Origin: Planctomycetota bacterium
GTDB lineage: Bacteria > Planctomycetota > Phycisphaerae > SM23-33
Direction: 5' to 3'
DNA length: 34,638 bases
NCBI GenBank assembly: GCA_016235825.1
Contig: JACRIL010000250.1
Span: 1 to 34,638 of the forward strand
The notes under the pieces were generated by a model. That model saw nothing but the letters and a program-made list of their open reading frames with translations, did no database searches and had not been told where the DNA came from. A program made the translations under genes and the position numbers. The first letter of the stretch is position 1; each line of letters opens with the position of its first letter. Shown in pieces: positions 16,458-29,764 of the stretch.

Positions 16458-18134
16458 ATGAACCAAATGGACCTTAATATTCGTATCGCCGGCGAGGCAG
16501 GCCAGGGCGTGGCTTCGGCCGGAGCGCTGGTCGTGGGCGCGGTGGCCGAATTGGGCGTGCACGTGCTGGCCAGCCAGAGCTACATGTCGCGGATCCGCGG
16601 CGGGCTCAACTGGTACGACATCCGGGTCGGCTCGGCCGAGCTGTTCGGCCCGCGGGAAAAGGCCGATCTGCTGGTCGCCTTAACGCCGGTGGCGCTGGAG
16701 CTTTTGCGAGGCGAACTGACCCCCGGCGGGCTGATTCTTTTCGACGGCGAGTCGGCCGGCGAAGGGGCGGCGGCCCTGGCCTTCACAAAAAAGGCGAAGG
16801 AGGCCGGCGGCTCGACCCTGATGGCCAATACGGTCGCGGCAGGGGCGGTCTTCGCGGTCCTCGGCTACAATCTCGACGAACTCTGCAATTATCTCGCCCG
16901 GCAGTTCAAGAAAAAGGGCGACGAGGTCATTCAAGCCAACATCCGCTGCGCCCGGGCGGGCGCGGAACTGGCCGGCGGCCTGGCCGGCAAAATGCCCGGT
17001 CCCCGGCCCGCCGGTGCGCCAAAGCCGCTCTCTGCCGGGGCCGAGGCGATCGGGCTTTCCGCCGCCGTAAGCGGCGCGAAGTTCGCAACGGCATACCCCA
17101 TGTCGCCCAGCACGGCGACCTTCGCGTATCTGGCGGCAGTGGCGGACAAGTACAACATTGTCGTCGAGCAGGCCGAGGATGAGATCGCGGCGGTGAACAT
17201 GGCCTGCGGGGCCGTATACGCCGGCGCGCCCGCGCTGGTTACCACAAGCGGGGGCGGATTCGCCCTTATGGTCGAGGGTCTGGCTCTGGCGGGGATGCTG
17301 GAACTGCCGGTGGTGATAGTTCTTGCCCAGAGGCCCGGCCCGGCCACAGGCCTGCCCACGCGAACCGCACAGCAGGACCTGGCCTTCAGCCTTTCGGCCG
17401 GGCACGGCGAGTTTCCGCGGGCGATCTTCGCACCGGGCACAATCGGGCAATGTTACGACCTGACCCGCCGGGCGCTCCAGACCGCCCACAAATACCAGAC
17501 GCCGGCGATCATCCTCACCGACCAGTTCCTCCAGGACATGCAGAAGAACGGCCCGCCGCTGCCGGACAAGCCTGACCCGATAGACCGCTGCATTGTTGCC
17601 GACGCCGGGACCGGCTACGTCCGCCATGCCGTTACCGAGAGCGGAGTCTCGCCTCGTGCGATACCCGGCGGGGCGGCTCTCGTCGTCTCCGACAGCGACG
17701 AGCACGACCAGGCCGGCCATCTGACTGAAGACCTCGACACGCACCTGGTGCAGCACGACAAGCGGATGCGAAAGCACGCCGGCCTGCTGGGCGCGGCCCT
17801 GCCGCCCGAATGGTACGGCCCGGCCGACGCCAAGACCGTCCTGCTGGCATGGGGCAGCACCTACGGCCCGGCCCGAGAGGCCGTCGATATCCTCAACGCC
17901 GGCGGGCAGTCCGCCGCCATGCTCCACTTCGGCCAGGTCTGGCCGATCGATGCGGCGAGAGTCCGCGACCTGCTGAACAGGCGGGCCACGATAGTCAGCG
18001 TCGAGGGCAACAGCACGGCCCAATTTGCCGGCCTGCTCAAGCAGCTCCGCGCGATCGACGGCTGCCGCGAACTGCTGCGATACGACGGCATGCCGTTCAC
18101 GGCCGAGTACATCGTCGGGCGGATGAAAGGATAA
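16458..18134 (+). CDS. korA: 2-oxoacid:acceptor oxidoreductase, fused gamma-alpha subunit
   Basis: With the next gene it forms a CoA-dependent 2-oxoacid:ferredoxin oxidoreductase, converting for example 2-oxoglutarate to succinyl-CoA, in either direction. The 558 residues comprise an N-terminal gamma domain (IAGEAGQGVASAG, 10-22; SYMSRIRGG) and, from about 200, the pyrimidine-binding alpha domain (AYPMSPSTATFAYLA; VEQAEDEIAAVNMACGA; TTSGGGFALMVEGL), followed by a domain II with LLAWGSTYGPAREAVDIL. This gamma-alpha fusion plus separate beta is the KorAB architecture. No ferredoxin-like delta subunit is encoded nearby. The substrate could be 2-oxoglutarate, pyruvate or a branched-chain oxoacid. 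GGAGGG and AGAGG precede the start; the ATG at 16467 is an alternative. Confidence 0.92.
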   Translation: MNQMDLNIRIAGEAGQGVASAGALVVGAVAELGVHVLASQSYMSRIRGGLNWYDIRVGSAELFGPREKADLLVALTPVALELLRGELTPGGLILFDGESAGEGAAALAFTKKAKEAGGSTLMANTVAAGAVFAVLGYNLDELCNYLARQFKKKGDEVIQANIRCARAGAELAGGLAGKMPGPRPAGAPKPLSAGAEAIGLSAAVSGAKFATAYPMSPSTATFAYLAAVADKYNIVVEQAEDEIAAVNMACGAVYAGAPALVTTSGGGFALMVEGLALAGMLELPVVIVLAQRPGPATGLPTRTAQQDLAFSLSAGHGEFPRAIFAPGTIGQCYDLTRRALQTAHKYQTPAIILTDQFLQDMQKNGPPLPDKPDPIDRCIVADAGTGYVRHAVTESGVSPRAIPGGAALVVSDSDEHDQAGHLTEDLDTHLVQHDKRMRKHAGLLGAALPPEWYGPADAKTVLLAWGSTYGPAREAVDILNAGGQSAAMLHFGQVWPIDAARVRDLLNRRATIVSVEGNSTAQFAGLLKQLRAIDGCRELLRYDGMPFTAEYIVGRMKG

Positions 18135-19072: not shown

Positions 19073-19915
19073 TCAGATGCTGATTTCGGCGTGGCGATGG
19101 CTGTGGCAGTCGATATTGACGGCGACGGGAAGCGAGGCGATGTGGCAGGGGGCGGATTCGACGTGCACGGCAAGTGCGGTGGTCCGGCCGCCCAGGCCCA
19201 TCGGGCCGATGCCGGTGGCGTTGATGCGGGCGAGCAGGTCGCGTTCGAGCCGGGCGTCGATTGGATTTTCAGAAGGCCGGCCCAGCGGGCGGAGCAGGGC
19301 CAGTTTGGCGAGCATGGCGGCCCGTTCGAAATTTCCGCCCAGCCCGACGCCGACGATGATCGGCGGACAGGTTTTTCCGCCGGCCTGCACGACCGTTTTG
19401 ACGACGAAGTCGGCCACCGCGGTGGCATCGGCGGAGGGTGTCAGCATCGCCATGGCCGACATGTTCTCGCACCCGCCGCCCTTTGCGGCAAAGCGGACGG
19501 TTGCGCGGTCGCCGGGCACGAGGCGAGTGTGCAGGATAGCCGGCGCGTTGTCGCCGGTGTTCCGCCGCTCGAGCGGATGGGCGACGACGCTTTTTCGCAG
19601 GCCCAGCCGCGTGTAAGCGGCGGCCACGGCGGAGTTGACTGTCTGCTCCAGCGGCTGGCCCGTGACGAGCACCTGTTGGCCGATATCAAGGAACACTACG
19701 GCCAGGCCGGTGTCCTGGCAGAGCGCCCGCCGCTCGGCGGCGGCGATGCTGGCGTTCTCGATCAGTTCGCCAAGTATGTCGCGGGCGAGCGAATTATCCT
19801 CGACGGCAATCGCGGTGGTCAGTGCATCCAATTCGGCCCGGCCCAGCGTGAAGCTGGCCTGCTCAATGCACTGCTCAACGGCCCGGCCTATCTCGGCGGC
19901 GTCAATTTCTCTCAT
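19073..19915 (-). CDS. Class I (iron-sulfur) fumarate hydratase, alpha part
   Basis: It is homologous to the N-terminal, cluster-bearing half of class I fumarases and to the alpha subunit of L-tartrate dehydratase. Three [4Fe-4S] ligands are visible: Cys66 (LCQDTG), Cys149 (GGGCENMS) and Cys183 (KTCPP). GGRTTALAVHVE and the C-terminal HIASLPVAVNIDCHSHRH match the family. At 280 residues it is the usual length of a separate alpha subunit, so a beta subunit must be encoded elsewhere; none is in the window. Fumarase is the most likely activity given the citrate synthase and KorAB genes, but tartrate dehydratase cannot be excluded. It starts 20 bases after the glycoside-hydrolase stop on the same strand and has no strong Shine-Dalgarno. 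Confidence 0.9.
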   Translation of the reverse strand: MREIDAAEIGRAVEQCIEQASFTLGRAELDALTTAIAVEDNSLARDILGELIENASIAAAERRALCQDTGLAVVFLDIGQQVLVTGQPLEQTVNSAVAAAYTRLGLRKSVVAHPLERRNTGDNAPAILHTRLVPGDRATVRFAAKGGGCENMSAMAMLTPSADATAVADFVVKTVVQAGGKTCPPIIVGVGLGGNFERAAMLAKLALLRPLGRPSENPIDARLERDLLARINATGIGPMGLGGRTTALAVHVESAPCHIASLPVAVNIDCHSHRHAEISI

Positions 19916-19935: not shown

Positions 19936-22881
19936 TCAGTTGAGCTTGCCAAGCTCTTTTCTCGCCTCTTTTGCGGCCTCGGTGTTGGGATGATCGGTGA
20001 TGACTTTGCGGAGCAATTCCTTCGCCTTGGCCGGGTCGGCTGTAACATAAATCTTCGCGGCGGCCAGTTTGCGTTTTGCCTGCGCCTCCTGGTCGTCGGC
20101 CGGAGGAGTAACGACGGCGGGCCTGGTTTCAGTCTTGGGATCGGTCTTCACGTCGGTCTTGGGCGGGGTCTTTCCGCCGTTGGGGTCAGGCTTTACTTCC
20201 ATAACAACCGACGCCTTGCCCGCGGCCGACGGGTCGCCGAGCACCACGTACATCGCGTCGGCCGGCAGCTTCACCGAGGCCGCCTCGCCCTTGCGGGCCA
20301 GCTCCAGTTCCTTGACCGGATACCCGTTGATGTCCAGCAGCGTCGCCTTCTTGATTCCGGCGTTGGCCACCGACACCGTAACATCGGTGTTGGCCACGTT
20401 CCACGGCGCAGCGCCGGTGGAGTCGATTTTGAAACCGCTGAAACTGTCTTTGCCGCCCCTGCCCTTGAAGTCCGAGGGGCTGGTCTTGAATCCGTAGGGC
20501 CGGCAGACGGTCGTGATCTGCACCAGCAGGACGGCGGAGGTCTTTATGGGTTTGTCGTCCAGCGGCACGACCAGGACGGTCGCGTACTCGTTGCCCGACT
20601 CGACCTCGACGTCGGCGAGTTTGACATTCTTGATCTTGCCGATGAAGCCCGTAACGCCCTGGGCTTTGGGGGCGTTGACCGTGCAGAGGCCCTTGTCGTG
20701 GTTAAGCTCGATCTCGCCTGTGATGCTCTTTACGGTCTTGGCAGAATCGTCGATGTACTTGGCGAAATCGACCGCGGTGCTCTTTGCCGGGTCGCCGCCG
20801 TATTTTACCTCGACCGGCCCGACCAGGTACGCCAGCGGATTGACTCCGCCCTGGATCGCACATTCCTTGGAGACGTTGCCCGTGTCGCGTAAAGAATCGA
20901 ACCCCTCGTCCTCGGCGATGACGGGCGTCTTGAGGTCGAACATGTCGGCAAGAGCGCGTTCTTCGTGCACGGCCGGCTCTCCCTTTTTCAGGAAGCCCTT
21001 GCGGAACATGAGGGCCGCCGCGGGCCAGCTGCCCATCTGGCAGGGGTCGGCCATCACCCACTTGCCCAGGTTCGCTGAGTATCCGGGCACTCCGGTTGCA
21101 AACCAGTAATAGCCGTCCATGCCGTTAAGCGAGCTGTACGCCGCCACGAGGAAAGGCCCTTCCGACTGGTATTCTGTGGGCGGCACCCAGCAGCTTTCAG
21201 ATATGATGTACGTCTGCGAGGCGACCTGCTTGGCGTTCGTGGGTATTTTGCGGGGATTCAGCAGGCACGAGAAAGACGTGAAGCAGTCGCCCGGGTCTAT
21301 CGCGTAGCCGGAGCGGTCTTTCGGGGACGGGTTGACGTGCACGCAGCCGGTGTAGCGGTTGACGCCGATGACCTCGTTGGCCGTGTACGAGTAGCGCTCC
21401 AGGTCCAGCAGCCGGACCTGGTCGGCGGTCCGCCAGTTGCCGGCGTTGACCATACCTTTGTAGCCGCACTCGTCGCGGAGAAATTTCTGGAGGTCGGCGT
21501 TCCACTTGTGCATCAGCTCGGCCAGGAAGTGCATGGAGTTCTTGAGCGGCTGGCCGGCGTTGGGCGTCTCCCAGAAGTTGAAGCTCAGCTTGCAGGAGCC
21601 GAGATTCTTCTCGGTCAGCCACTTGTCGAATATCGCCTGGAGGCGGGCGTATTCCTCGGCGTTTTTCGTGATCGTCTTTGCCGTGTGGAAGAACAGGCTG
21701 TCCTCGTTCTGTATCTGGAAGATGGCCAGGGCCGGGTCCTTGGCGAGCGGCGTTTTGTTAGATTCAAAGGGATTCGGGCGAGTCAGCAGTTCCTTGACCC
21801 AGCCCTTGTAGGCCTTCTGGAGGTCCTCGTCCCAGAAGAGCATCCCCCACGGCGCCCCGCTTGGATGACCCTTGAGACCCCAGTTAGGCCCGACCTCGCG
21901 AATCGCCCAGTAAGGCGAATATGTTACGTAGATGCCCTCCTTTTTCATGACGGCCACCAGCTTCTGGGCGGCCGTGATGTCTTCCTCGTTGGGCTTGGAG
22001 AACGGCTGATCTTTCGGCGGGTTCAGATCGCCGTGATGGCGGACCATATTGATGCCCCGCTTGGCCAGGTGCTTGGCATGGTACTCCAGGTCGTCGGTGC
22101 CGGGCGCTGTCTGGACGCTGGTGTTGGCGCACCAGAGGCGGACAGGCTTGCCGCTGCCCAGGACGAAATCGCCGTCGGGGGTCATCTTCATGTACCCGGA
22201 CTCGCCGGCGATTTTCTCGTTAAGCGGCCGCAGGTCTATCGGCGAGGGCTTGTTGAATTCGTCGAAGTCCGGCTCGAACGCCCATTTGCCGGCATCGGCA
22301 AGGCCGAGCTTCTGGCCCGGCTTGACCAGGCCGCTGGGAATGAAAGACTTGTTGGTCAGCACGAAGCAGTCGAAGACGAACGCCCCGTATTTGCCGTCCT
22401 TGCTTGGGATGGCCTCGATCCTCAGAGTGCTTTTGCCGGCCGGCAGCTTCACCTTGCCGGCGCAGATCCAGTTGATGCAGTGCGTCCTCAGGCTGACCGA
22501 ATCGAGCAGGGGAAAACGATCGACGTTTTTGAACTCATCGCTGTTGAATTTCCATTTGAACGGGCCGTGATGCCAGAATTTGCGCACGTAGAAGGTGTAG
22601 TTGCCTTCAGCAGGGACATCTACCTCATACTCCAGGAAGGTTCCTTCCTGACTTGTTCCGCCGATGCTCTTGCCGCCCGAGAGCTTGGGGTTTGCAGAAT
22701 CGAAGACGTGGCCGTCCGACATATTCTCCGACTTGGCCTTGGCCGCCTCGCCCTCCCACCACACATAGGCAATGCCTCCGGCCGGGGTCGGCGGGGGATT
22801 GGCGCCGGGGGCCTGTTGTAGCAAGGCCAGCCCGGCAAGAAGAATCAGACCGACTGCCGTTGCGGCTATCGAGAGCTTCAT
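19936..22881 (-). CDS. Large secreted glycoside-hydrolase-like protein
   Basis: The 981-residue product starts with a signal peptide (1 to about 29). Residues ~35-175 look like a CBM6/35-type carbohydrate-binding beta-sandwich (WWEGEAA, GNYTFYVRKFWHHGPF). A TIM-barrel glycosidase region follows (about 220-700), with RGINMVRHH, IFQIQNEDS (Glu393, likely acid/base) and YIISESCW (Glu562, likely nucleophile), the spacing seen in clan GH-A enzymes. A beta-rich region follows, then a Pro/Lys/Thr linker (about 895-935), and a helical tail resembling one tetratricopeptide repeat. The exact GH family cannot be assigned by eye. The start at 22881 is chosen because it opens the signal peptide; the ATG at 22950 adds non-signal residues. 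The LacI-type gene lies upstream. Confidence 0.8.
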   Translation of the reverse strand: MKLSIAATAVGLILLAGLALLQQAPGANPPPTPAGGIAYVWWEGEAAKAKSENMSDGHVFDSANPKLSGGKSIGGTSQEGTFLEYEVDVPAEGNYTFYVRKFWHHGPFKWKFNSDEFKNVDRFPLLDSVSLRTHCINWICAGKVKLPAGKSTLRIEAIPSKDGKYGAFVFDCFVLTNKSFIPSGLVKPGQKLGLADAGKWAFEPDFDEFNKPSPIDLRPLNEKIAGESGYMKMTPDGDFVLGSGKPVRLWCANTSVQTAPGTDDLEYHAKHLAKRGINMVRHHGDLNPPKDQPFSKPNEEDITAAQKLVAVMKKEGIYVTYSPYWAIREVGPNWGLKGHPSGAPWGMLFWDEDLQKAYKGWVKELLTRPNPFESNKTPLAKDPALAIFQIQNEDSLFFHTAKTITKNAEEYARLQAIFDKWLTEKNLGSCKLSFNFWETPNAGQPLKNSMHFLAELMHKWNADLQKFLRDECGYKGMVNAGNWRTADQVRLLDLERYSYTANEVIGVNRYTGCVHVNPSPKDRSGYAIDPGDCFTSFSCLLNPRKIPTNAKQVASQTYIISESCWVPPTEYQSEGPFLVAAYSSLNGMDGYYWFATGVPGYSANLGKWVMADPCQMGSWPAAALMFRKGFLKKGEPAVHEERALADMFDLKTPVIAEDEGFDSLRDTGNVSKECAIQGGVNPLAYLVGPVEVKYGGDPAKSTAVDFAKYIDDSAKTVKSITGEIELNHDKGLCTVNAPKAQGVTGFIGKIKNVKLADVEVESGNEYATVLVVPLDDKPIKTSAVLLVQITTVCRPYGFKTSPSDFKGRGGKDSFSGFKIDSTGAAPWNVANTDVTVSVANAGIKKATLLDINGYPVKELELARKGEAASVKLPADAMYVVLGDPSAAGKASVVMEVKPDPNGGKTPPKTDVKTDPKTETRPAVVTPPADDQEAQAKRKLAAAKIYVTADPAKAKELLRKVITDHPNTEAAKEARKELGKLN

Positions 22882-22903
22882 AGTGCACCTGCCTTTCGCA
22901 AGA

Positions 22904-22921
22904 ATCCGTTTGAATACGGAT
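22904..22921. promoter_or_regulatory. Palindrome upstream of the glycoside-hydrolase gene
   Basis: ATCCGT-N6-ACGGAT lies 23 bases before the start codon of the glycosidase gene and downstream of lacI on the same strand. Its size and position fit an operator for the neighbouring LacI-type regulator, although it lacks the central CG common in that family. Inference only. Confidence 0.35.
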
Positions 22922-22990
22922 GTATTGTTCACTTGCCCGAATATCGGCAATGGTTACACGAAATTCCGGAATCTCACGGAGCGGCCGGCC

Positions 22991-24127
22991 TTACGCCGAG
23001 CCGTTTTTGGCGGCGGCAGTTTCCGGTTGCGGCCTGCACGGGATCGTCTTTCGGGCCATCCCGTCGATTTCCTGAAGCAGCGGGCAGACCCTTATGGCGC
23101 CCTTTGCGGCCGTCTTGGCGGACTGGGCTTGTTCCAGCAGCCTGATGGCGGCCAGTCGGCCTATCTCCTGCCAGTCAATCGCGATGAACGTGGTCCGTCT
23201 GGGCGGATAGAACAGCTTGCCCGCCAAAATGTCCTCCGCAACATCCATCGGCCAATCTTCAAAATGAACGCACTCGATCTTGCCCAGCTCGCCCGGCAGG
23301 CGGCCCGCGTCGTCCGGCAGCGGATAAAGCAGGGACATGCTTATGTAACTGTTCTCGACGAAGACGGCGGTCGGCGGGTCGGGCAGGGCGAGCAGTTCGC
23401 TCACGAGGCGGCGCGCCGGCAGCCACCCTTCCTGCCCCTGCCCCTGCCGGATGGCCTTCACGCAGCGTTTGTCGAGCGTCAAGCCGGCATCGTTTATGGC
23501 GGCCTGGAAACCGGCGAACTTCCGGTTGCTGTTGATGCCCGCCAGGCTGAACTGCCAGCGGATCGTTCCTATATTCTTGTGGCCGCGGGATATCAGCAGC
23601 CGGACCGCCTCGTAAGCCCCGGAAAAAGAATCAACGACCACGGCGCTGTAGCCGGAAATCTCGGTGTCGTATCCGAGCTGGACGACGGGCACGCCCGCCT
23701 GACTGAACAGTTTGCATGCGTCTTTCAAGCAGCCCAGGTCCGTGCTGACCAGCACTCCGCCGGGGTTGGCCTGGCATATCCGCGAGAGCTGTTCGAGCTT
23801 CGAGGAGTCGCTGGGACCATTGCCTGTCAGAAATTCCACATGGAGGCTGGCCTGGGCCTCAGACATCGCCGACTGGATTCCCTCGAGCTGGCTCAGGACG
23901 GCCGTCGACTTGCCGGCAGACGTGATCTCGGGCAGGTCCAGCAGAAACACGAACGGCTTGCGGAGATGCTTGGGCTTGAAGCCCGCCTGCTCCAACTGCG
24001 AAACCACCCTGCCGCGGACCCGCTCCGAGGCCCGCCCCTTGCCGTTGAGTATCAGCGAAACAAGAGAGGGCGAAACCCCGGCGCGCCGGGCGATGTCTTT
24101 TAACCGGATCTTCGGCCTGATCTTCAT
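22991..24127 (-). CDS. LacI-family transcriptional regulator
   Basis: The 378-residue protein has an N-terminal LacI helix-turn-helix (IRLKDIARRAGVSPSLVSLI, 7-26) with the hinge-helix region to about 58. A periplasmic-binding-protein-like effector domain follows (QLEGIQSAMSEA; GVLVSTD; GYSAVVVDSFSGAYEAVRLLISRGH, named only by its ends). It should repress sugar-related genes until an effector binds. The start at 24127 puts the HTH at the usual distance from the N-terminus. It has no Shine-Dalgarno, and its promoter's -10 lies only 7 bases upstream, so translation may be leaderless. The likely target is the adjacent glycosidase gene and possibly the acetylesterase; autoregulation is possible. 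Confidence 0.92.
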   Translation of the reverse strand: MKIRPKIRLKDIARRAGVSPSLVSLILNGKGRASERVRGRVVSQLEQAGFKPKHLRKPFVFLLDLPEITSAGKSTAVLSQLEGIQSAMSEAQASLHVEFLTGNGPSDSSKLEQLSRICQANPGGVLVSTDLGCLKDACKLFSQAGVPVVQLGYDTEISGYSAVVVDSFSGAYEAVRLLISRGHKNIGTIRWQFSLAGINSNRKFAGFQAAINDAGLTLDKRCVKAIRQGQGQEGWLPARRLVSELLALPDPPTAVFVENSYISMSLLYPLPDDAGRLPGELGKIECVHFEDWPMDVAEDILAGKLFYPPRRTTFIAIDWQEIGRLAAIRLLEQAQSAKTAAKGAIRVCPLLQEIDGMARKTIPCRPQPETAAAKNGSA

Positions 24128-24133
24128 GGTAAT

Positions 24134-24162
24134 TTTGTAGTAAATAATTGAACAAGTGTCAA
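24134..24162 (-). promoter_or_regulatory. Promoter of the LacI-type gene, leaderless geometry
   Basis: On the minus strand TTGACA (24162-24157), a 17-base spacer and TACAAA (24139-24134) precede the ATG at 24127. Transcription would begin within a base or two of the start codon. Confidence 0.6.
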
Positions 24163-24217
24163 TGGCAAATCCCGGCCGGGGCAAACCTGCCTGCTCATGT
24201 GTTGGAGGACTTGATCT

Positions 24218-25678: not shown

Positions 25679-27604
25679 TCATGTTGTAATACCCGGCCAG
25701 TCGTCGGTTCGGAAGAGCAGGGCGGGCAGGCCTTCTTTGTTATACAGGGTGCAGGCGGGATTGTCGGCCCAGGCGTATCTGACGGCGATGGGCCGGGCGA
25801 CCTGCCCGCAGGTCAGGACGACTTCGTCGCCTTCTATCCGCGCGTCGGCCCAGTGGAATTTTTTGTCGCTTCCCGCGATGGCAAATCCTTTGAGTGCCGG
25901 TCCCTTTATCGTCAGCCCGCCGCAGACGTGCGAGAACCTGATTTGCACCGACGAACCCCTGACGGTCATGGATTCATAGACCGGCCCGGAATGCGCGATC
26001 TGCCGGCCATAGGTCTTCGCCAGCGCGACCAGGGCCAGCCGCAGACACACATCCTGTTTATTTTTCGGATGCACGTCGTTTGCTTCGCCCACGTCGACGG
26101 CAGTCGCCAGGCCGGTCTTGGGCAGCGCAAGGGCCATCGCCTGGGCCTCCCGTAGTTCGGCCCAGGCGCTGTTTGTCGGCTGAAATGGAATCTGCCCGAA
26201 ATTGGCTATCTGCACAATCAGGAACGGGAAATCGCCCTGTCCCCAATGGCTTCGCCAGTCTTTTATCATAAGCGGCAGGAGCCTGCGGTAGGTCCTGGCC
26301 GCACTGGAGTTGCTCTCGCCCTGATACCATGTTGCGCCCCGGATTCCATACGGTATAAGCGGTTTGATCATACCGTTGAACAGGAAGGCCGGGAAGTTTA
26401 CCGGATTTGCAGGCATCAATGCGGCGATGGATTGCAGCTTGAGTTCTATCTTGTGCCGCCAGATCCCAGCCAGAGGGATTGCCGATGATTCCGCCTGGCG
26501 CGGGTACAACCGGAGTTGCTCAGCCCTGCCTGCCGCAAACCCCCCGTTGCCGTAATGGTCGAAAATGCGAACAGCTATCACATTTTTGCCGGCTTTAACC
26601 AGTTTGCCCGGAACAGCGTAGACTCGCGGAATCAGATAGGCATTGCCATTTTCATTGCCGCTCGTCCCGACCAGCTCGCCGTTGAAGTAGGTATGGTCGA
26701 AGTCATCCAACGGCCCCAGTTCGAGCACAAGTTCCCTGCCGGCCCAGTCCATCGGAACTTCTACATCTTTTCGGAACCATACAGCGCCGTCAATATCGCC
26801 GATCTCCGTGTTTTCCCAATATCCGGGCGCCATGAATTTGCCCCATTCGGAGTCGTCAAATTCGCTCTTGGCCCAGCCCTTTTTCTGCCCCTTGTTGCCG
26901 TGGTCCTTCCATGCCGGCGCCCAGAGATCCAGACGCAAATCCTTACGATTAACCTCGATGAACTTTTCGTAATCGGCTTTCTTTGAGTCGCTTTGCCTGT
27001 ATATATCCTGGAATTCCGGATCGCCTTCAAACGCCTGCCGGCTTGTCCATGCCTCGATGATGGTTCCGCCGACGGAACTGTTAATTAATCCGACAGGCAC
27101 GCCAAGTTCCTTGTGCAGGCGCCGCCCGAAAAAATACCCCACGCCCGAAAAACCTCCAACAGTCTGCGGAGAGCATATCTGCCACTGGCCGGTGCAGTTG
27201 TCCCTGAGGTCCGGACTGCTGGCCCGCTGAACCGTGAAAAGCCGGATTTGCGGATAATTCGCCGCGGCGATCTCCCGTTCTGAATCATTGCAGGCTGTCA
27301 CCGGGAATTCCATGTTCGACTGGCCCGAGCACAGCCAGACCTCGCCGATCATAACGTCGCGGCAGGTTATCTTCTTTTTGCCGCAGGACGCGGCCAGTTC
27401 ATAAGGCCCGCCCGCCTCCATCGGATCGAGCCGCAGCAGCCAGCGGCCGTCCGGTCCGGATGAAGTCTGAACGCTCTGCCGATCAAGGCTGACCGTAATT
27501 TTCCGGCCGGCCGGGGCGACGCCCCAGACGGCTATCGGCATCTGGCGCTGAAGAACCATCGAATCGCCGAAAGGCGAACCAAGGCTGAAATCCATAGACG
27601 GCAT
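25679..27604 (-). CDS. Sialate O-acetylesterase family protein
   Basis: The 641-residue protein has the SGNH/SASA esterase core. Ser96 in CSGQSNMEF is the nucleophile, NSSVGGTIIEAW the oxyanion region, and ATWYQGESNS and DVHPKNKQDV (the latter bearing the catalytic His) complete the fold. A galactose-binding-like jelly-roll insert lies around 250-370 (FDDSEWGKFMAPGYWE; HTYFNGELVG). Family members remove O-acetyl groups from sialic acids or other glycans. No signal peptide is evident, which is unusual for the family, so it may act in the cytoplasm on imported sugars. AAGGAT precedes the ATG. Its final 14 codons are duplicated at 24218-24266 beyond the accessory island. The C-terminal RTDDWPG is a family hallmark. 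Confidence 0.92.
   Translation of the reverse strand: MPSMDFSLGSPFGDSMVLQRQMPIAVWGVAPAGRKITVSLDRQSVQTSSGPDGRWLLRLDPMEAGGPYELAASCGKKKITCRDVMIGEVWLCSGQSNMEFPVTACNDSEREIAAANYPQIRLFTVQRASSPDLRDNCTGQWQICSPQTVGGFSGVGYFFGRRLHKELGVPVGLINSSVGGTIIEAWTSRQAFEGDPEFQDIYRQSDSKKADYEKFIEVNRKDLRLDLWAPAWKDHGNKGQKKGWAKSEFDDSEWGKFMAPGYWENTEIGDIDGAVWFRKDVEVPMDWAGRELVLELGPLDDFDHTYFNGELVGTSGNENGNAYLIPRVYAVPGKLVKAGKNVIAVRIFDHYGNGGFAAGRAEQLRLYPRQAESSAIPLAGIWRHKIELKLQSIAALMPANPVNFPAFLFNGMIKPLIPYGIRGATWYQGESNSSAARTYRRLLPLMIKDWRSHWGQGDFPFLIVQIANFGQIPFQPTNSAWAELREAQAMALALPKTGLATAVDVGEANDVHPKNKQDVCLRLALVALAKTYGRQIAHSGPVYESMTVRGSSVQIRFSHVCGGLTIKGPALKGFAIAGSDKKFHWADARIEGDEVVLTCGQVARPIAVRYAWADNPACTLYNKEGLPALLFRTDDWPGITT
25684..25727 (+). 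repeat. Right direct repeat of the island (att-like)
   Basis: This 44-base segment at the 3' end of the acetylesterase gene matches 24223-24266 in the same orientation with about four mismatches. Between the two copies lie the toxin-antitoxin, HTH and membrane-protein genes. Confidence 0.8.
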
Positions 27605-27617
27605 GGCTTGATCCTTA

Positions 27618-27634
27618 AGTATTCTGAAAATACT
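27618..27634. promoter_or_regulatory. Palindrome upstream of the acetylesterase gene
   Basis: AGTATT-N5-AATACT lies 13 bases before the start codon and overlaps the zone just after a possible TATAAA -10. It is operator-like by symmetry and position only. Confidence 0.3.
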
Positions 27635-27648
27635 GTTTTTTATAGTAG

Positions 27649-27747
27649 CACGGGCGTCTCGCCCGTGAGTATCAGGGGCATCCTGCCCTTGGGTGCAATT
27701 GTTTCATGGCCGAGACGGCCATGTTACTCATGGGCAAGATTCCCATG
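27649..27747. repeat. Array of four REP-like palindromes (cluster C)
   Basis: There are four 19-base hairpins, at 27649-27667 (loop GTCTC), 27673-27691 (ATCCT), 27705-27723 (GAGAC) and 27729-27747 (AAGAT). The first two and last two are in opposite orientation as judged by their loops. They belong to the same family as the clusters at 14693 and 16324. They separate the co-directional aldo/keto reductase and acetylesterase genes and may reduce readthrough. Confidence 0.85.
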
Positions 27748-27775: not shown

Positions 27776-29764
27776 TTATACAAACCACACCTCGCCGAAT
27801 CCCGAAGGATCTCTCCAATTGTCCCGTCCGCCGGCGAAAATGAACTGGCCGACCCGCTTGCCGCCTTTGTCGGCGGTGTTGACGGCGATGTCAAATCCGA
27901 GCTTTGAAGGGACGCCTTCGGCGACGCAGAACGAGGCGTAGGGTATCTTTGCGCGAATGCGGTAGCCGTCCGGGGTTCTTTCGGATGAGACGTCAATTCC
28001 CTCGATGTTTTGCGGGCTGTTGAAGAAGGCCGGGTATTTGCCGGGCGTGCCGGGATAAAGAAATAACTGGTAGACGCCTTTCTCGTATTTCGGAAAACCG
28101 ATCCGCGAGGGCTGGCGGCCGTCAAGGTACACCTCCAGGCCGTCCACCAGCGAACCACTGTGCGATTCCGCCCGTGAAGGAAACAGGAAATCGTCCCGCA
28201 CGTCCGCCGTCAGGTCCAATCCGTCTTTCGCCCGCGACAGCCGGAAGCGAAGGCCGTGCTTGCGGGCCGTGTCCTTCGCGGCCGTGAAATCATCTTCGGA
28301 TGCCTCGACGGACAGCCAACCGTCGCCCTTCTCCTGTGCCCCATTCCCCTTCGGAAGCACGAGATAATTATAAACCTTTTCCAGAGTCTGCGTCGCCGGG
28401 CCGCAGGAAATGCCGATCTTCATCACAATCTGATGCCGCCTGACATCGGCCTTGCCCCCGATGGTCATTGCCCGCCATGCCATTGACGGCACGGCGCCGA
28501 AGTCCTTGCTGTCGTCCGCGACAGCGGTCTGTCCGTCGCCGGCGACGGTAACTTTAATCTGGCGTTCCTCCGCGGAGAAATTCCGCAGCCTCAGCGACAT
28601 CTGGAAGCCGCCGTCCATTCCGATCCGATTCATGGCCGTATTGCAGATGACAGATCCCGCCCGGCCGTCCAGCATCAGGGCGGTCTCATTGAGCCTGTCC
28701 GGAATTTTGATGCCCTGCGGGCACAGCGGCATGCACTTGCCGCAATTGACGCACTCCGCGGCCCGTGTTCCGGGCGTATTTTTGTACCTGTTTTTCGCGT
28801 TATCCTTCAGCCCGTATATCAGGACCTGGTTGAACATGTCGAGGTTGTCTGGGATGTTGATGCCCTGCTGGCACGCCGGCAGGCAGTAGCGGCAGGCCGT
28901 GCAGTATAGCCCGCTCTTTTTTTTCCGCTCGGCAATCGCATCATCCAGGGTCGCGATCTGTTCGGGCGTGAAGGGTTTTGCGCTGTTGGCGAGCGAGGCG
29001 TTTTCCTCGAGCTGCCGCATCTCCGACATGCCGGAAAGGGCGACGTTCACGGCCGGGTGGCCCCAGACAAAACGCAGCGCCGCCTCGGGCGTCGATTTCG
29101 CCTGGCCGCCCGTCAGTTCCCTGATCTGCTCGCTGGGCAGGCCCAGCCTTCCGCCGCCCACCGGGCCCATAACCACCACGCCCATGCCTTTCTGGCGGGC
29201 GTACTTCATCGCGTCGGCGTTTCCCTGATCCAGCAGATTGTATTGCAAAATCACGTTCTCGTAACAACCGGTGTCGACCAGCTTGATGAGATTCTCCGGC
29301 GTGTCGTGGAAACTGAAGCCGATGTGCCGGCTCAGGCCCTGCTGCCTGGCTTTGAGCATGAGCCGCGTCTTGCCGTTTTTGGCCGGATCCAGATTATTGA
29401 CGTACATCTCCCAGTTGATGCCGTGATGGCTGTAAAGATCGAGGTAGTCGGTCCGCATCAGCCGCAGCGAGTTTTCCAGGGCACGCCACCAATCGTCGTC
29501 GCTGGCGGTGGACAGGCTGTTTTTCGTGGAGAGAACGACTTTGGGGCGCATTGCCTGCATCGCCTCGCCGATCGCGGCCTGGCTGTCGGAATTGCAGTAG
29601 CCGATTGCAGTGTCGAAGAAATTCACGCCCAGTTCGACCGCGCGGTGCAGCATGGGGATGGCCAGGCCCCGGTCGACCCTGCCGTCCTTCATGGGCAGCC
29701 TCATGCAGCCGAACCCCAGGGCCGAAACCTTCAGGCCTGTATTGCCCAATTCCGAGTAACGCAT
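27776..29764 (-). CDS. Aldo/keto reductase with two ferredoxin-like clusters and a CBM9-like domain
   Basis: Residues 1-285 form an aldo/keto reductase barrel with the catalytic set Asp51 (FFDTAIGY), Tyr56, Lys81 (LSTKNS) and His113 (YSHHG). Residues 288-298 (CTACRYCLPAC) and 338-348 (CVNCGKCMPLC) are two 4-cysteine motifs for [4Fe-4S] clusters, an arrangement known in a subgroup of these reductases. From about 440 to 662 the protein continues into a beta-sandwich resembling family 9 carbohydrate-binding / DOMON-like modules (LEVYLDGR; RDNWRDPSGFGEVWF). There is no signal peptide, so a carbohydrate-binding module on a cytoplasmic redox enzyme is odd. The frame is uninterrupted. AAGGAG precedes the ATG. 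A promoter with a palindrome lies just upstream. The substrate is probably a sugar or sugar lactone. Confidence 0.9.
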   Translation of the reverse strand: MRYSELGNTGLKVSALGFGCMRLPMKDGRVDRGLAIPMLHRAVELGVNFFDTAIGYCNSDSQAAIGEAMQAMRPKVVLSTKNSLSTASDDDWWRALENSLRLMRTDYLDLYSHHGINWEMYVNNLDPAKNGKTRLMLKARQQGLSRHIGFSFHDTPENLIKLVDTGCYENVILQYNLLDQGNADAMKYARQKGMGVVVMGPVGGGRLGLPSEQIRELTGGQAKSTPEAALRFVWGHPAVNVALSGMSEMRQLEENASLANSAKPFTPEQIATLDDAIAERKKKSGLYCTACRYCLPACQQGINIPDNLDMFNQVLIYGLKDNAKNRYKNTPGTRAAECVNCGKCMPLCPQGIKIPDRLNETALMLDGRAGSVICNTAMNRIGMDGGFQMSLRLRNFSAEERQIKVTVAGDGQTAVADDSKDFGAVPSMAWRAMTIGGKADVRRHQIVMKIGISCGPATQTLEKVYNYLVLPKGNGAQEKGDGWLSVEASEDDFTAAKDTARKHGLRFRLSRAKDGLDLTADVRDDFLFPSRAESHSGSLVDGLEVYLDGRQPSRIGFPKYEKGVYQLFLYPGTPGKYPAFFNSPQNIEGIDVSSERTPDGYRIRAKIPYASFCVAEGVPSKLGFDIAVNTADKGGKRVGQFIFAGGRDNWRDPSGFGEVWFV

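Follow-up and report, generated by a model that had tools for sequence, protein, structure and literature searches.

A rare, recurrent fusion of an iron-sulfur aldo/keto reductase to a CBM9-like tail in Planctomycetota

Introduction

Why should a redox enzyme with no visible secretion leader end in a domain of the kind that holds sugar on a secreted xylanase? This is the question raised by one gene in the 34,638 nucleotides of planctomycete DNA (contig JACRIL010000250.1) that we refer to as the window. An original prediction, made from the letters and their translations, saw in it an aldo/keto reductase (AKR) joined to two iron-sulfur motifs and a CBM9-like module, and proposed that the latter holds a large or polymeric sugar for reduction, linking ferredoxin-type electrons to glycan chemistry. 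The iron-sulfur AKR family is poorly studied, yet its relatives are common in the class to which the window belongs, and a natural fusion is one handle on the substrate or partner of such enzymes. If the tail binds sugar, a substrate class is named; if it does not, the case warns that a CBM9_1 match does not prove that a protein binds glycan. Our literature search found nothing on the function of iron-sulfur AKRs and nothing on an AKR/Fe-S/CBM9 fusion, which is the subject of none of the titles listed on CBM9 and Planctomycetes. An excerpt of one paper (PMC4265447) describes a predicted AKR active on butyraldehyde whose membership of the iron-sulfur subfamily is only possible. We put the odds at roughly even (0.5) that the protein is an NAD(P)(H)-dependent iron-sulfur reductase carrying a CBM9-fold accessory tail that does not grip polymeric glycan.

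Results

The gene is a single open frame whose coordinates and strand were predicted exactly (Table 1) and which continues for just 10 codons 5' of its ATG. Judged by eye, no leader-like stretch precedes the barrel, in agreement with the predicted lack of a signal peptide. Aldo_ket_red, Fer4_9 and CBM9_1 all score above their curated Pfam cut-offs within the one frame, while nothing exceeds the NCBIfam cut-offs among the 23 matches listed. Sequence matches of the full protein in the PDB fall either on the barrel (best 1ynp, E 8.6e-21) or on the CBM9 part (7nwn, 1i82), and none of the best 60 of 70 matches covers both. Scans returned 3 promoter-like sites (2.0 expected) and 9 terminator-like sites (5.5 expected), counts that carry no weight in our reading.

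Table 1. Coordinates of the fused gene, its parts and its downstream neighbours in the window
Feature	Position	Strand	Basis or remark
Whole fused gene	27776..29764	(-)	662 aa; ATG at 29764 with AAGGAG ribosome site upstream; stop at 27776
Aldo/keto reductase barrel, residues 1-280	28925..29764	(-)	Pfam PF00248; tetrad conserved among 50 aligned sequences
Dicluster 4Fe-4S domain, residues 287-351	28712..28906	(-)	Pfam PF13187; cysteines 288, 291, 294, 298 and 338, 341, 344, 348
Segment without Pfam match above cut-off, residues 366-488	28301..28669	(-)	Pfam matches at best well under cut-off
CBM9-like C-terminal domain, residues 489-662	27779..28300	(-)	Pfam match 506-659; five-tail profile matches 1i82
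SASA-type esterase with GH2_N domain	25679-27604		Downstream of fused gene; Pfam
LacI regulator	22991-24184		Downstream; Pfam
1004-aa protein	19936-22950		Downstream; Pfam gives no glycosidase family up to E 0.1

The barrel matches Aldo_ket_red at residues 16-276 with 124 bits against a cut-off of 24 (E 8.4e-36), and a putative catalytic tetrad of D51, Y56, K81 and H114 is complete, the roles being those we take to hold throughout the AKR superfamily. By profile and tetrad alike, then, the window protein is a predicted member of that superfamily. Across 50 aligned sequences, the window's included, Y56 and K81 are each found in 49 (with one gap at each), D51 in 44 (Glu in five others) and H114 in 43, while H153 is invariant; also well kept are G245 (50/50), S244 (48/50) and N255 (47/50), presumably residues of the NAD(P) site. 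Behind the barrel, Fer4_9 scores 34.6 bits (cut-off 27) over the motifs CTACRYCLPAC and CVNCGKCMPLC, and each of the eight cluster cysteines is kept in all 50 aligned sequences. The first motif of the window protein reads CxxCxxCxxxC and is thus one residue longer than the CxxCxxCxxCP of 43 of the 50. The pair of 4Fe-4S motifs C-terminal to the barrel, which together have eight cysteines, would place the protein in the iron-sulfur AKR subfamily, that is, among the AKR plus Fer4_9 proteins for which we take COG1453-type to be the family label. A separate Lentisphaeria record (L023:5599-9708) holds three tandem iron-sulfur AKR genes, which suggests local expansion of the family.

A domain-architecture search for the fusion had been proposed with the original prediction. 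Searches of 392 phylum-sample and 397 class-sample genomes, with the loci read, returned the same in-frame layout in four more, two from other classes of the window's phylum (G284 and G145, the latter with its protein's N-terminus cut by a contig end) and two from its own order (G506, G491). The tail beyond the iron-sulfur domain measures 298-306 residues in these four and 296 in the window, as opposed to 1-31 in the other 45 of 50 relatives. In a tree of the 50, the five fused proteins form one group with support of 88/90, which falls short of the tool's mark of 95/80; their clustering was matched by none of 500 shuffles. Because five genomes share the in-frame layout and form one tree group, the window gene is not the product of a frameshift or of two genes joined during assembly. 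An apparent swapped order (tail before barrel) in an 824-residue frame of G566 was rejected, as no domain matches its additional N-terminal portion and there is an in-frame start for the barrel itself.

The fusion is therefore real and recurrent across lineages, and it is also rare: while 83 of 397 class-sample genomes match the window protein at E 1e-40, a tail-profile search, with the window's own genome counted each time, finds the full tail in 3 genomes at every level: out of 38 in the order (where two others match weakly and in part), out of 387 in the class sample and out of 362 in the phylum sample. No fused member was seen among 387 genomes sampled from the phylum of the Lentisphaeria record, where the tail profile makes 22 CBM9-type matches in 17 genomes and the barrel has no match in the 20 loci around them (two matches had no locus), and no relatives were found in viral contigs. 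Ordinary parts stand here in an unusual combination, with a tail that was probably gained once.

The tail itself has two parts. Between the iron-sulfur domain and the CBM9 part lies a stretch of about 120 residues that the original prediction did not describe, for which Pfam gives nothing above cut-off (best SupH-like_C, E 0.073, and fn3_5, E 0.26) and which is perhaps a putative Ig/Fn3-like beta domain. In the second part, CBM9_1 matches the window protein with 34.2 bits against a cut-off of 23.4, also passed by G284 (29.9 bits), and the other three fused proteins stay below it. Although just two of five pass, the relation to CBM9 is sound for the fused group, since a profile built from the five tails finds TmCBM9-2 (PDB 1i82) at E 2.6e-8 over most of the module; at profile level, the predicted CBM9-like character of this part thus stands. 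A single-sequence structure prediction of residues 374-662 has a mean pLDDT of 33, so that the CBM9 fold is taken from the profiles.

Identities among the five fused proteins are 46-68% for the barrel and 43-71% for the iron-sulfur part, against 20-40% for the CBM9 part and 9-38% for the middle part; judging by these figures, the tail is evolving far faster than the barrel. Such poor conservation would suit a passenger with little function of its own, which a single event of domain shuffling would have brought in from CBM9_1 proteins of these groups; the sampled genomes do indeed have CBM9_1 on proteins of unrelated kinds (GH10, metallophosphatase). Set against this are a near-constant length of 296-306 residues kept in stop-free frames by five members from four families, and tail positions invariant in all five, among them N395, H503, D541, L547 and D548. 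We hence regard a mere passenger as rather unlikely and favour an accessory tail with a role.

Could that role be to hold a polymeric sugar for reduction by the iron-sulfur-fed AKR, as first proposed? The CBM9_1 match itself speaks for it, and the binding site can be compared with that of TmCBM9-2, in which, according to an excerpt of PMC8280721, Trp71 and Trp175 clamp the sugar and Gln96 and Asn172 contact glucose. The window copy has a TmCBM9-2-like motif, NWRDPSxFG, that contains the Trp175 equivalent, and a Glu is kept at the E77 equivalent, so that sugar binding by this member is possible. It has Ser, however, where TmCBM9-2 has Trp71, and Asp at the Asn172 equivalent, and in none of the five fused proteins are both clamp aromatics found together. 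The Trp71 column differs by alignment (one places no aromatic there in any of the five, another a Trp in G284, G491 and G145), and both give 0/5 with a full clamp. For comparison we used CBM9_1 segments from unrelated proteins, 23 after one of 24 (L086, from residue 341) was dropped as a middle part rather than CBM9; these include several near copies (L084, L085 and L093 among them), and 7 of the 23 have an aromatic at both positions. The difference between 0/5 and 7/23 could be chance (about 0.16 by hand calculation), and since just 7 of 23 keep the pair, its absence is no more than suggestive against sugar holding. At the level of residues, it would lower the likelihood of a sugar reading for the tail, and the case for sugar binding appears weak.

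Gene context had been invoked in favour of a glycan role. The acetylesterase directly downstream and the nearby LacI regulator named in that argument are real by Pfam matches, the supposed glycosidase lacks the Pfam match that would make it one (Table 1), and the esterase lies 171 bases from the fused gene, across repeated stem-loops; two small genes without Pfam matches separate esterase and regulator. Around the four relatives the genes are others. The G284 copy adjoins a protein kinase, DUF401, an M16 peptidase, a prepilin peptidase and a PRPP synthetase, with a T2SSE gene and, at some 5 kb, a Kdo-transferase-like gene further off; G506 adjoins FapA and an HD-domain regulator, and G145 DUF2330 and HEAT. 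The G491 copy adjoins a heparinase II/III-like gene (about 2.6 kb away), DUF6268 and TerB, with a Gfo/Idh/MocA oxidoreductase further off. The heparinase-like gene favours the polymer proposal and is the one glycan-suggestive neighbour among the scanned genes of the four; the scanned neighbours of the other three hold no carbohydrate-degradation match, G284 offering just its Kdo-transferase-like gene. An operon common to the relatives was sought among the scanned neighbours and not found. Ten neighbours from six loci of tail-less relatives likewise have little in common, and include two PQQ_2 propeller genes (L063, L064) and one second iron-sulfur AKR (L067).

Several features of the surrounding DNA may be recorded here. 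Short intergenic hairpins (e.g. CACGGGCGAGACGCCCGTGCTAC) at window positions 27610-27745 are part of a genome-wide repeat, presumably of REP/BIME or MITE type: GGGCNNGANGCCCNTG..CTA has 41 forward and 50 reverse matches in its own genome (a few places being counted twice owing to the variable gap) versus 0 and 1 for a reversed control, often as inverted pairs some 70-100 bases apart. Upstream, the gene at 29892-31601 matches the Hvo_1808 surface protein family with 85.8 bits (cut-off 200). A pyruvate/2-oxoacid ferredoxin oxidoreductase-like gene (16458-18134) and a fumarase (Fumerase) gene (19073-19915) fit an anaerobic, ferredoxin-using metabolism.

Two further points weigh on the polymer proposal. 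With no secretion leader seen, contact with a polymer is unlikely. Moreover, coupling ferredoxin-type electrons to glycan chemistry would call for a flavin or a similar gate between one- and two-electron transfer, and Pfam finds no flavin domain in the protein, which leaves that part of the original prediction, like the sugar holding inferred for a tail that keeps the second clamp Trp alone, short of support. To our minds, reduction of a polymeric glycan held by the tail is unlikely. Distinctly improbable is a new class of intracellular redox enzyme whose NAD(P)H/iron-sulfur AKR receives a soluble sugar or the end of a glycan from the CBM9-fold sandwich and reduces the sugar carbonyl in a ferredoxin-coupled reaction. 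Very improbable is a DOMON-like haem b domain completing an AKR-ferredoxin-cytochrome chain, for which cellobiose dehydrogenase and ethylbenzene dehydrogenase gamma, with their DOMON-like haem b domains, are the model: CBM9_1 belongs to a Pfam clan with such haem domains and one would supply an electron partner for the clusters, but H503 is the sole invariant candidate ligand in the five tails, in which every Met, Lys, Cys and other His position varies, and a conserved axial pair thus seems to be missing.

Discussion

We prefer to read the protein as a cytoplasmic enzyme of the iron-sulfur AKR subfamily that depends on NAD(P)(H) and whose tail is an accessory. Its barrel would reduce (or oxidise) a carbonyl or alcohol by Asp-Tyr-Lys-His chemistry, an activity suggested by the presence of these residues, while the dicluster ferredoxin domain, found in every relative examined, may exchange single electrons with a partner or else hold the fold. 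The C-terminal portion of about 295 residues, probably a single gain, would consist of the unmatched segment and the CBM9-fold sandwich, and the latter most likely serves as an accessory domain for docking or oligomerisation. Alternatively, it may have a small, soluble ligand resembling a saccharide, bound in a manner particular to the lineage. Between docking or oligomerisation and the holding of a polymeric glycan, we see the former as more likely.

Two known systems frame the accessory-tail reading. The first is TmCBM9-2 of Thermotoga xylanase 10A, which has in common with the window copy the equivalents of Glu77 and Trp175 and differs from it at the Trp71/Ser position; it also belongs to a secreted xylanase, whereas the redox enzyme that carries the window's CBM9-like domain has no visible leader. 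The second comprises the iron-sulfur AKRs themselves, with which the window protein shares barrel, active-site residues and eight cysteines. The nearest tail-less ones, from the same class, are 43-49% identical to it over about residues 1-370, and one encoded in the window's own genome (C75) is 44% identical; these enzymes stop 1-31 residues past the iron-sulfur domain, where the window protein adds 296.
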